A stretch of 64,000 nt of DNA. Source: Gemmatimonadota bacterium (GTDB lineage: Bacteria; Gemmatimonadota; Gemmatimonadetes; Gemmatimonadales; Gemmatimonadaceae). The stretch spans positions 496,001 through 560,000 of the forward strand of contig PLCA01000005.1 of assembly GCA_003134685.1 (NCBI GenBank), read 5' to 3'. Both the position numbers and the translations under genes were made by a program. Under the pieces are notes generated by a model. The model made no database searches, was not told the DNA's origin, and saw nothing but the letters and a program-made list of their open reading frames with translations. This document shows positions 52,747-55,981 of this stretch, in pieces; within the stretch, counting starts at the first letter, position 1; each line of letters opens with the position of its first letter.

Positions 52747-53252
52747 CTCCGTCCCGCGATTCGAATCGCTGCGTCGAGCGTGTCAGTGCGCGACGGCAGA
52801 CAGACCTTGTCGCTGCACACCTGATAGCGGGCAGCAATCTGGAATCTGCGAATGCCGGCGAGCGAATGCCCCGGCACGCCCACGGGAATCGTGAACTTTA
52901 CATTTCCGGAATAGAGCTCGGTCTCAATTCCAAAATTCTTGTCGAAGGTACGCTCCGGTTTTGGCGCGTTGATTACCCCACGCACGACCACGTCAGCGGC
53001 TCCGACGAGCTCGAGTCGCAGGGGAATCGGGCCGCCTGACTTCTGCGTCAGCGAGTAGATGTGCCAACCCTTCGCGATATCGACCTGCACCGTGATCGGA
53101 ACGGTGCGTCCCGAAACGACATCGCGAGGCGAGCTGCCACCGACCACGGTCCAGCGGACGGGCCGCAGCGACAAATCGCCAGCATTCCGCGGAACTCCGT
53201 CGTATCGATGGATGCTGAGCGACAGCAGGAGTAGATATGCGAGCTTGTTCAT
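52743..53252 (-). CDS. Periplasmic DsbD alpha-domain protein
   Basis: 169 residues with an N-terminal signal (NKLAYLLLLSLSI). The domain matches the DsbD N-terminal immunoglobulin-like module: VQVDIAKGWHIYS and the cysteine pair in YQVCSDKVCLPS. It would accept electrons from the beta/gamma partner and pass them to periplasmic targets. ATG at 53252 is preceded by GAGGT; a TTG at 53261 is the alternative. It is divergent from the DUF421 gene. Confidence 0.87.
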   Translation of the reverse strand: MNKLAYLLLLSLSIHRYDGVPRNAGDLSLRPVRWTVVGGSSPRDVVSGRTVPITVQVDIAKGWHIYSLTQKSGGPIPLRLELVGAADVVVRGVINAPKPERTFDKNFGIETELYSGNVKFTIPVGVPGHSLAGIRRFQIAARYQVCSDKVCLPSRTDTLDAAIRIAGRR

Positions 53253-53290
53253 GCACCTCAAATATACACGTCAGACGGCGCGATCCCTGC

Positions 53291-53357
53291 TATAGACTAC
53301 ACATCGGCGGCGCGAGCGTTCGGCTCAACCTCGCCGCCGCATTCACAGGCGAGGCTG
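53291..53357 (+). promoter_or_regulatory. DUF421 gene leader with two exclusive hairpins over the ribosome site
   Basis: A -10-like TATAGA lies at 53291-53296; the -35 is weak. The short leader can form hairpin A (CGGCGGCG at 53305-53312 with CGCCGCCG at 53332-53339) or hairpin B (CCTCGCC at 53329-53335 with GGCGAGG at 53348-53354). Both use bases 53332-53335, so they exclude each other. Hairpin B hides GAGG, the ribosome site for the ATG at 53358. This looks like a translation switch, but GC-rich sequence can do this by chance. Confidence 0.42.
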
Positions 53358-53900
53358 ATGGGGCACACACCCTTCTATTTTGAGAGCTGGTACAACGTCG
53401 AGCGCACCGTGACCCTGTCTATCGTCGGGTTCGCCGCGCTGTTCATCATGCTCCGTGTTTCGGGCAAGAGAACTCTTTCCAAGCTTAACGTCTTCGATTT
53501 CGTTTTCGTCGTTGCCGTCGGTTCCGTGTTCGCGTCGATGATCATCTCAAAGGACGTGACGCTGATCGAAGGCATCGCCGCGCTCGCGACTCTGATCGGA
53601 ATCCAGATGGGCCTGTCTTACGTCGCGGCCCGGTTCCCAAAGATGGAGCGCATCATCAACGGCGAGCCGACGCTGCTGCTGACGCACGGCGAGTTCATTC
53701 CCGCCGCGCTCATGAAGGAGCGCGTGACAGAGGAGGAGGTACGTGGCGCCATTAGAGCCGAGGGAGTCACGCGCGTCGAGGACGTCAGCGCCGTTACGAT
53801 GGAAAACGACGGGACGCTCACCGTCGCCTGGATGTCGAAAAAACCCGGTGAAACGAGCCTGGTTGACGCGAAGGATCCCGACCCAGACAATAGCGCCTGA
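53358..53900 (+). CDS. DUF421 (YetF-like) membrane protein
   Basis: 180 residues with three hydrophobic helices (about 18-35, 45-65, 70-88) and a soluble C-terminal domain. LRVSGKRTLSKLNVFDFVFVVAVGSV is the hallmark of the family. Such proteins occur in spore-formers and many others; their role is unsettled. The C-terminal part includes the MKERVTEEEVRGAIRAEGV motif found in the family. Leader structure suggests translational control. Confidence 0.9.
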   Translation: MGHTPFYFESWYNVERTVTLSIVGFAALFIMLRVSGKRTLSKLNVFDFVFVVAVGSVFASMIISKDVTLIEGIAALATLIGIQMGLSYVAARFPKMERIINGEPTLLLTHGEFIPAALMKERVTEEEVRGAIRAEGVTRVEDVSAVTMENDGTLTVAWMSKKPGETSLVDAKDPDPDNSA

Positions 53901-53943
53901 GCAGCCCTGGGCTGACTACGGTCCGCCCCGTCTTCACCCCTAA

Positions 53944-53977
53944 CCAGAGAGTGTTGCGTCGACGCAACACTCTCTGG
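53944..53977. repeat. Perfect 34-bp palindrome with a third arm copy
   Basis: The left arm CCAGAGAGTGTTGCGTC (53944-53960) is followed with no spacer by its exact reverse complement (53961-53977). A further direct copy of AGTGTTGCGTC follows at 53979-53989. There is no T tract, so it is not a normal terminator. A protein-binding site or a cruciform-forming element is possible. Confidence 0.9.
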
Positions 53978-54001
53978 CAGTGTTGCGTCCATGACACACC
54001 T

Positions 54002-54098
54002 ATCAGGGGCGCTGACCGGCGTAAAACGCATGCCACAAATGGTCCCCGACTTGCCCCCGCTTTGCTTGGCGCGCCGACCCGGTCAACGCGCCCCTGAT
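54002..54098. repeat. 18-bp interrupted inverted repeat around a 59-base loop
   Basis: ATCAGGGGCGC (54002-54012) pairs with 54088-54098, and TGACCGG (54013-54019) pairs with 54079-54085; the right arm has two extra bases (54086-54087). The loop is 59 bases. It lies 24 bases after the palindrome and 65 bases before the TPR/TonB gene start. It could be a structured RNA, a large regulatory hairpin or a small mobile-element remnant; no target-site duplication is seen. Confidence 0.8.
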
Positions 54099-54163
54099 CG
54101 CGAGGAAAGGCCTCGTCCTCAGTGTTCGTCGTTGAGACAGTTCACCGTTTGAGGGTCCAGTGC

Positions 54164-55981
54164 ATGGTCGACGCCGCTGCAGGCCTCGAGCGCAGTATCG
54201 ACACGACGAGCTATTCCCCAATCGCCAGCGGGGACCGCGTGAGCGCGGGCCGAGCCCCCCGCTCTCCCGATGCGTCCGTCGATGCGAATGACGGGTCACA
54301 TCAGGATCTCGCGTCACTCGTGAGGCACGGGGCGATGAGACTCGAAATGGGGAACGAGGCGGAGGCGGAGGAGTGTTTCCGCAAAGCATTGGAAATCGGT
54401 GACCGCACACTCGGCGCCGATCACCCGGATCTGATACTGCTCCTCAATGACCTGACGCGCCTCTACCTCAGGCAGTCGGCATACGCCGCGGCCGAGCCGC
54501 TTCTTCTGCGCCTGCTCGAGCTGAAGCGGAGCAAGGGAGAGGATCACCCCGAGGTGGCGACGGTCCTGGCGAGCCTGGGAACGGTGAGACAGGCGCTGGG
54601 CCACCACGAATCGGCCGAGCAGCTCTGGCGGAGAGTTCTCGACATTCGCGAGCACACCCTGGCACCGAATCACTTCGCCATCGCAACGGCGCTCGAGCAT
54701 TTCGGGGACGCGTGCGCGGCGCGCGGGAAGATTCGCGAAGCCCTCGCGGCTTTTCAGCGCGCCCTCGCTATTCGCGAGCGCACTCTTGGAAGCGACCACG
54801 CGAGTCTACGGAGCTCGCGGGAACGAATCGCGGATCTCCAGCTCCAGGCCTCGGACGATTCGCTCGATCACAGCGCCGGTGACGCGTCCACTGCCCAGGA
54901 CCGGTATCGGTTGCTGTCAGGAGAGCCTCCCGCGGTATCGTCGCTGTCGCCCGTGGCGCTGACCCGCGAGAGAGTCCCGGGCCCGAAGACTAGAAAAGCG
55001 GCGGTCATGATTCAGCCGCCATTCTCGGACACCGTGACAATCGAGAACGCGCCCGTCGTTGACGAAGCTACTCCCACCGGAGTGGCAACGGCGCAGACCG
55101 AGTCAGCGCCATATCTCCCCGTCCTCGAGACCATTCGGGAAGAGCTCGAAACGCCTGACCAGAGCGGAAGCCTGGCTGAGCGCGCTCGAGCGTACTTCGC
55201 GCGAGCGATCGCGTTCCTTGGAATGCGGCAGGTCGTAGCGGGGGCTGTGGTGCTGGTAATCGCCTCGCTCCTGATAGCGGTGGCGACAGGCGCTCATGGC
55301 TGGGGAGAAGTCGATCAGACGACTGCTCTTGCGGCGGCGCTTCCGACGCACGAATCGCTCCCGATCGCTGCTCCCTCGGCTGCGATTGCGGTGACGACTC
55401 GCGATCCAGTGCGCGCCCCCGTCCCATCTCCCACAAACGCCACCCCCAAAGCTGTGTCGCAACACTCGCGCGTAACGGAAGAGCAAAACACTTCGAGAAG
55501 GGTGACGGAGAAGAAAACGGACTCGAAGAAAATCGCGATTCCCACTTTTTCGACAGGGATGTTGTCGCGGCTGGATTCTGTCGCCTCGACGGCTGCAAAC
55601 ACCTCGCGAGCCACGGATGCCCTCGACTTCCAGCCCGCGCCGCCCTCACTCGGCACCCGGCGCTCGAACTTCGCGTCCCTGGAACAGTCAAAGGGCCCTC
55701 AGCGCGCGCGACTGATCGGCGAGCTGCCGCGCCCTCAAGTCCCGGATCAAATCGCCGATATCGAGGGTGATGTCCGGGTCCGCTTCGACGTGGATACGGA
55801 AGGGCGCCCGGTCATGTCGACCCTGTTGGTTGAGAGCTCTCCGAACCCGCTACTCACGAACGCGGTCAGAAAGGTCATCCTCAACCTCCGGTTTGAACCG
55901 GCGCGATCGGGCGGGGCGGAGTCGAAGCCTATCGGCGAGGTGGTCGGAATCGCCTTCCAGTTTGCTCGGCGAAACCGATAG
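54164..55981 (+). CDS. TPR-repeat and TonB-domain membrane protein
   Basis: About 605 residues. The first 200 contain kinesin-light-chain-type TPR repeats (EAEECFRKALEIGDRTLGADHPD and two or three more, each ending in LG-x-DHP-like). A hydrophobic segment follows near 360-385 (VVAGAVVLVIASLLIAV). A Thr/Ser/Lys-rich linker then leads to a C-terminal TonB-type domain (IEGDVRVRFDVDTEGRPVMSTLLVES). The ATG at 54164 follows GAGGG by eight bases; an earlier in-frame GTG at 54122 is not needed. It may link a cytoplasmic scaffold to envelope energy transfer. Confidence 0.83.
   Translation: MVDAAAGLERSIDTTSYSPIASGDRVSAGRAPRSPDASVDANDGSHQDLASLVRHGAMRLEMGNEAEAEECFRKALEIGDRTLGADHPDLILLLNDLTRLYLRQSAYAAAEPLLLRLLELKRSKGEDHPEVATVLASLGTVRQALGHHESAEQLWRRVLDIREHTLAPNHFAIATALEHFGDACAARGKIREALAAFQRALAIRERTLGSDHASLRSSRERIADLQLQASDDSLDHSAGDASTAQDRYRLLSGEPPAVSSLSPVALTRERVPGPKTRKAAVMIQPPFSDTVTIENAPVVDEATPTGVATAQTESAPYLPVLETIREELETPDQSGSLAERARAYFARAIAFLGMRQVVAGAVVLVIASLLIAVATGAHGWGEVDQTTALAAALPTHESLPIAAPSAAIAVTTRDPVRAPVPSPTNATPKAVSQHSRVTEEQNTSRRVTEKKTDSKKIAIPTFSTGMLSRLDSVASTAANTSRATDALDFQPAPPSLGTRRSNFASLEQSKGPQRARLIGELPRPQVPDQIADIEGDVRVRFDVDTEGRPVMSTLLVESSPNPLLTNAVRKVILNLRFEPARSGGAESKPIGEVVGIAFQFARRNR

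Follow-up and report, generated by a model that had tools for sequence, protein, structure and literature searches.

The control of exopolysaccharide and of the cell exterior by sigma-54 is an established theme (PMC3162934, PMC4641369). In the PEP-CTERM/PrsR regulon, the activator site (motif 1) is located on average 62.8 nt upstream of the -24/-12 motif, the sigma-54 response regulator is usually encoded near exopolysaccharide genes, and a TPR protein, PrsT, is included; motif 1, a 17-nt sequence ending in TTTACA, is reported in the accessible text of that work only in Proteobacteria (Haft et al., 2006, PMC1569441). In Desulfovibrio vulgaris, DVUA0057 and DVU0110, two response-regulator sigma-54 activators (bEBPs) with the GAFTGA motif, have been assigned to exopolysaccharide/biofilm operons, the former being encoded in an exopolysaccharide synthesis-related operon (PMC3333781, PMC4641369); the accessible part of one of these papers gives no validated binding site motif for either regulator (PMC3333781). 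In Vibrio, the NtrC-family protein LuxO has two sites approximately 100 bp upstream of the sigma-54 site (PMC11407668). Regarding sigma-54 in Gemmatimonadota, almost nothing was found in the literature searched: Gemmatimonas is placed on a sigma-54 phylum figure, with no regulon for it found in the accessible text of that paper (PMC3162934), and the accessible text of another does not mention Gemmatimonad- at all (PMC12316311). Neither the motif described below nor a sigma-54 exopolysaccharide regulon in Gemmatimonadota was found by title and start of abstract among the papers listed, in a search that covered mostly openly accessible work other than preprints.

Within the window (the whole stretch of 64,000 nucleotides analysed here), a palindrome of 34 bp, CCAGAGAGTGTTGCGTC/GACGCAACACTCTCTGG, lies between a DUF421 (YetF family) gene and the gene of a TPR-repeat protein with a C-terminal TonB domain (Table 1). 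As a sequence-only reading of this DNA had described, it is perfect and free of any spacer, with 17 of 17 pairs matched. No other gapless perfect palindrome of the window is as long (arm of 17, against 9 for the next best); that reading had called it too regular for chance, and about 1e-5 palindromes with arms of at least 17 are expected per window at the base composition found here. Its 18-bp core is TGTTGC-N6-GCAACA, with the dyad at 53960/53961. The same reading had reported a third, direct copy of the half-site two bases further on; the copy of AGTGTTGCGTC is indeed present (53979-53989), at a distance of one base (53978). It belongs, as the half that is intact, to a second, degenerate site that lies 29 bp away and agrees with the first at 81% over 21 nt. 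The 11-mer AGTGTTGCGTC has three copies at the locus and occurs in two further places in the genome, both within long ORFs (591 and 555 aa). The perfect symmetry over 34 bp exceeds the needs of an 18-bp site, and templated quasi-palindrome correction or extra contacts could explain it; the other sites examined, unlike the window palindrome, are symmetrical mainly around the core. In one relative (G014) the palindrome is also perfect over 34 bp, and differs from that of the window by one compensated pair (A:T to C:G) in the outer arms, at positions 53946/53975.

Table 1. Coordinates of the features at the locus and of the motif copies elsewhere in the genome (own sites).
Feature	Position	Strand	Remarks
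DUF421 (YetF family) gene, upstream neighbour	53358..53900	+	Pfam; YetF without the site in G002 and G017
UAS1, predicted primary enhancer site	53944..53977	.	Palindrome, core 53952-53969; core present in G014, G016, G009, G005 (0-1 mismatch)
UAS2, degenerate second site TGTTGCGTCCATGACACA	53979..53999	+	29 bp downstream of UAS1; contains the third half-site
Predicted sigma-54 promoter TGG-TCCCCGAC-TTGC	54040..54054	+	-24 GG 54041-54042, -12 GC 54053-54054
TPR-repeat protein gene with C-terminal TonB domain, predicted target	54164..55981	+	Pfam TPR_12, TonB_C
Own site 1	window palindrome		Before TPR/TonB gene; promoter at 81 bp
Own site 2	C11:40466		Before wzc-like/SLBB/sugar-transferase (exopolysaccharide) operon
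Own site 3	C11:42365-42382 (L115 10366-10383)		Before sigma-54 activator (bEBP) gene, inside exopolysaccharide locus
Own site 4	C11:171765		Before WbaP-like sugar transferase, downstream of CpsB/CapC
Own site 5	C15:71772		Before Big_2/ZU5 protein, near Wzt, pyruvyl-transferase and glycosyltransferase genes
Response-regulator bEBP, candidate activator	C11:40581-42275		Inside exopolysaccharide locus

Upstream of the TPR/TonB gene there is a sigma-54 (-24/-12) element, TGGTCCCCGACTTGC, of the layout GG-N10-GC, that is, with ten bases between the -24 GG and the -12 GC; the sequence-only reading had missed it. The dyad of the palindrome is found 81 bp upstream of the -24 GG and the weaker copy 29 bp downstream of the palindrome, an arrangement that agrees with a palindromic activator site some 60-200 bp upstream, often in tandem. 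Transcription from such promoters starts about 12 bases past the -12 GC, which puts the predicted start at about 54065-54067 and the dyad near -105. The -24 element of the window, TGGTCC, deviates from TGGCAC. ATG 54164, with GAGGG ahead of it at 54151-54155, is the probable start codon of the TPR/TonB gene (the mechanical ORF opens at GTG 54122), and the start region of the gene is alike in G014, G016 and G009. An imperfect inverted repeat (ATCAGGGGCG...TGACCGG, at 54002-54019 and 54079-54098) flanks the promoter; it is partly kept in G014 and G016 and lost in G009.

The region was searched against 61 genomes, 12 of which gave a match: the own genome, three relatives with long matches (G014, G016 and G009) and eight genomes with short, weak ones (E 0.001-0.008). 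The locus of a fourth relative, G005, was located by synteny. In these four members of the genus the gene is preceded by the core palindrome, which has one mismatch at the most, and by the sigma-54 element, at dyad-to-promoter distances of 81 (G014), 81 (G016), 82 (G009) and 103 bp (G005). All 15 promoter bases are identical in three of the relatives, and the element sits in 22 consecutive invariant columns of the alignment of the window with G014, G016 and G009, where no longer stretch of the region is unchanged; its counterpart in G005 is TGGTCCCTCGATTGC. Most of the second site persists in G014 and G016; in G009 it is weaker, and in the locus comparison with G005 it was not seen. Motif, promoter match, spacing, conservation and co-occurrence can be read directly from the DNA. 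The gene behind the site is the TPR/TonB gene in G014, G016 and G009. In G005 (L067), the downstream gene appears to have shrunk to a TonB-type ORF and is possibly broken, with enhancer and promoter intact. The TPR search of the named genomes returned two close relatives (Gemmatimonadota MAGs) and three distant TPR matches.

The upstream neighbour behaves differently. G002 and G017 have YetF with neither site nor promoter in the stretch fetched, and the TPR/TonB search gave weak matches only in these genomes; in G009 and G005 an extra gene lies between YetF and the site. Therefore the site goes with the TPR/TonB gene and not with YetF, which is probably outside the regulatory system (the YetF of G008, at a contig end, was left out of this synteny judgement). 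A 3′ element of YetF is rejected on the same synteny. This bears on the proposal that the palindrome serves the DUF421 gene as a terminator or as a hairpin in its RNA. The stretch 53900-54140 is predicted to fold with unusual stability (MFE -110.4 kcal/mol, z -6.7, with none of 200 shuffles as stable), which favours this proposal, but the gene order in G009 and G005 and the siteless YetF of G002 and G017 speak against it, the core sequence itself recurs elsewhere and so is not merely a hairpin, no terminator-like hairpin with a T-run was detected in 53200-54300, and no Rfam family reaches its gathering score in the window. A hairpin or terminator is thus very unlikely, and a terminator had already been discounted by the sequence-only reading. 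That reading had offered a recombination site as its second option, which found no support. A long perfect palindrome with a direct repeat would suit a recombination or mobile-element site, but the 34-mer is unique in the genome, the site stays before the TPR/TonB gene in four relatives, and none of the five neighbouring proteins scanned is a mobile-element protein, all of which makes such a site scarcely credible. A dispersed repeat (REP, MITE) was likewise rejected: beyond the locus itself (on both strands), the best match in the own genome has an E of 0.41 over 19 bases. The genome holds only the locus itself, not the common repeat family that was named at first as the alternative to an operator.

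An extended form of the core, GTGTTGCG-N4-YGCAAC, occurs with zero mismatches in five places of the 3.63-Mb genome (own sites 1 to 5 in Table 1). At four of them a TGG-N8-TTGC lies downstream, toward the gene, at 81, 61, 60 and 61 bp, and the promoters at 61, 60 and 61 bp have TGGGC-N6-TTGCG in common. For a position picked at random on a given strand, the chance that such a promoter match follows at 45-105 nt downstream is 0.0034; the background amounts to 12 matches in 218,040 strand-bases, the own four included. Downstream of the site before the bEBP gene no convincing sigma-54 promoter was found. In the case of the WbaP-like gene, the promoter falls within the mechanical ORF, so that a later start codon is needed, for instance ATG 8682 of L116. 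These recurrences weigh on a further possibility, namely that the palindrome is the operator of a sigma-70-type repressor or activator and that the -24/-12 match arose by chance. Other regulator families, too, commonly use palindromic dimer sites, and one sigma-70-like match is present at 53863-53891; however, three other palindromes have a similar element at 60-61 bp, and the promoter element of the window belongs to the longest invariant run across four genomes, so this possibility appears improbable.

The specificity of the pattern was controlled with the reversed pattern, both strands added. The 18-bp core with up to two mismatches does not discriminate genome-wide (236 against 294 for the control), and the extended pattern with up to one mismatch gives 7 against 5 in the own genome, which leaves the discrimination to exact extended matches only: the own genome has 6 of these (control 1) and the 61 genomes have 25 (control 4). 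Exact matches are present in 13 of the 61 genomes; 22 of the 25 were examined, the other three being the same palindromes read in reverse. Of those outside the genus, three (L125, L128 and L132) have a nearby promoter-like element scoring 9 of 10, which at L125 and L128 is of the TGGCAC type, with distances to the dyad of 100 and 97 bp, and at L132 is GGGCACAGGCCTTGC. At most exact matches outside G000 and G014 the promoter is weaker or absent, and the distances in G053 and G054 (97 and 100 bp) are off the ladder of two-turn steps seen within the genus. Mechanical ORFs of at least 100 aa overlap many of the relatives' sites, which is not discriminating because three of the five own sites are overlapped too. 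In G033 the core palindrome is found twice (L140 C3:11206 and L142 C3:64266), some 53 kb apart and with identical 36-base surroundings, as if duplicated.

As to the protein that might act at these sites, the genome encodes sigma-54 (one Sigma54_DBD match) together with a competent activator; eight of its 12 Sigma54_activat matches are strong. The motif at 0-1 mismatch is found at only one of these 12 loci, that of the bEBP on contig C11; the remaining 11 hold one 2-mismatch site, at a weak AAA+ match. The C11 bEBP comprises a receiver domain, an AAA+ domain that carries GAFTGA as well as GETGTGKE, and a Fis-type HTH whose HTH_8 score of 21.7 is just below the cut-off of 22. Among the matches listed for it in the 61 genomes, 34 are orthologs (49-97% identity, E <1e-145) and the rest have about 37-42% identity. 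The loci of 30 of the 34 were compared, taking 500 bases upstream of each ortholog (14,026 bp in total, two of the 30 having almost no upstream sequence) against the remaining 113,957 bp of the loci. With no mismatch, up to one and up to two allowed, the upstream regions contain 3, 11 and 21 sites, versus 0, 1 and 7 in the rest, where the sole site with up to one mismatch is the own wzc-operon site; in 200 mononucleotide shuffles of the upstream regions at most 0 and 3 sites appeared at up to 1 and 2 mismatches. The enrichment is confined to the 6-base spacer (11 sites, versus 0-2 for every other spacer from 0 to 14), so the motif that precedes this regulator and its orthologs is spacer-specific. 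By region, 9 of the 30 have a site at up to one mismatch and 17 at up to two, leaving 13 without; the near-identical G000 and G014 count as one event.

The same sigma-54 enhancer might instead be used by another bEBP, or the motif by several, and in that case the TPR/TonB gene would not necessarily be part of an exopolysaccharide regulon. The eight strong Sigma54_activat matches are in favour of this, as are G005, G009 and G016, which keep site and promoter with no C11 bEBP ortholog detected even at E 1e-8; in them long bEBP matches are of paralog level only (38-42%), and their assemblies are 67-87% complete, for which reason the absence of an ortholog is not proved, though three such misses are a difficulty for the C11 bEBP as activator. 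Site and C11 bEBP are both present in G000 and G014, and G017 has the bEBP ortholog and shows neither a TPR-gene ortholog nor, in the stretch fetched, the site. Against the involvement of a different bEBP stand the restriction of the 0-1 mismatch motif to the C11 locus and the strong enrichment upstream of the C11 bEBP orthologs; we regard it as unlikely, yet as the one alternative that deserves some weight.

The C11 bEBP is linked to exopolysaccharide by its neighbours. Homologs of the own exopolysaccharide proteins were sought around 23 of the 30 ortholog loci, and a wzc-, wza- or wbaP-like gene is near 22 of them, versus none of the seven loci of strong own paralog bEBPs. Both wzc and wza are present at 17 ortholog loci, L195 has a weak wbaP match only, and the single locus without an exopolysaccharide gene is an 8-kb contig. 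At 15 of the 16 loci with a clear wzc, this gene and the bEBP are divergent with the upstream region in common, by which measure the own arrangement looks rearranged. Upstream of wzc in the relatives, a promoter match is found in 6 of 16 cases (control 3.6%), four of them TGGGC-N6-TTGC, with the strict promoter absent in the other 10, and a site with up to two mismatches in 8 of 16 (control 4.7%). Since the stretches overlap at 15 of the 16 loci, these counts are not independent of those upstream of the bEBP, and sites in the common region may mainly serve the wzc operon.

From these comparisons we infer binding and activation, the bEBP that acts, and the physiological role. It is highly probable that the palindrome is a sigma-54 enhancer (upstream activating site, UAS), with the C11 bEBP, which has the same palindrome before its own gene and before the next operon, as the most likely activator; in that case the TPR/TonB gene would be one member of an exopolysaccharide/cell-surface regulon. 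The operator for a dimeric regulator that was proposed at first is in this way supported and specified as the site of a sigma-54 activator. A bEBP dimer would bind at the core, TGTTGC-N6-GCAACA, some 105 bp ahead of the predicted transcription start, a second dimer may occupy the weaker copy 29 bp downstream, and the AAA+ oligomer would loop to the RNA polymerase-sigma54 at TGGTCCCCGACTTGC, opening the TPR/TonB promoter. With distinctly less assurance, we lean towards a broader view in which Gemmatimonadaceae possess an undescribed sigma-54 exopolysaccharide regulon. Its non-PrsR response-regulator bEBP would recognise TGTTGC-N6-GCAACA, control operons of the wzc/wza/wbaP type, which often diverge from the bEBP gene itself, and have recruited a TPR/TonB envelope protein via a long, perfectly symmetric enhancer, at distances from the promoter of about 61, 81 or 103 bp within the genus. 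Steps of approximately two DNA turns, as these are, bear on how the activator must face the polymerase. An isolated palindrome becomes a testable regulatory link that comprises motif, promoter, candidate activator and a list of targets, and the prediction follows that the cell produces an uncharacterised TPR/TonB envelope protein along with its exopolysaccharide. As a mechanism this is classical; the motif was not found described in the literature searched.

Among the known systems, the sites of LuxO in Vibrio (TTGCA...TGCAA, at small-RNA targets) have TTGC/GCAA half-sites with a shorter spacer than here, and the C11 bEBP scores 347.8 for LuxO, for which the cut-off is 800. The Desulfovibrio vulgaris regulators, as far as their accessible descriptions go, are likewise GAFTGA response-regulator bEBPs tied to exopolysaccharide, in a different phylum. 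The best NCBIfam match of the C11 bEBP is TIGR02915 (PrsR), with a score of 367.5 that stays below the cut-off of 502.6. Judging from the accessible text of the papers on it, the PEP-CTERM/PrsR regulon is the nearest described one, similar in architecture and different in motif, which here is TGTTGC-N6-GCAACA (PMC1569441, PMC9850573).
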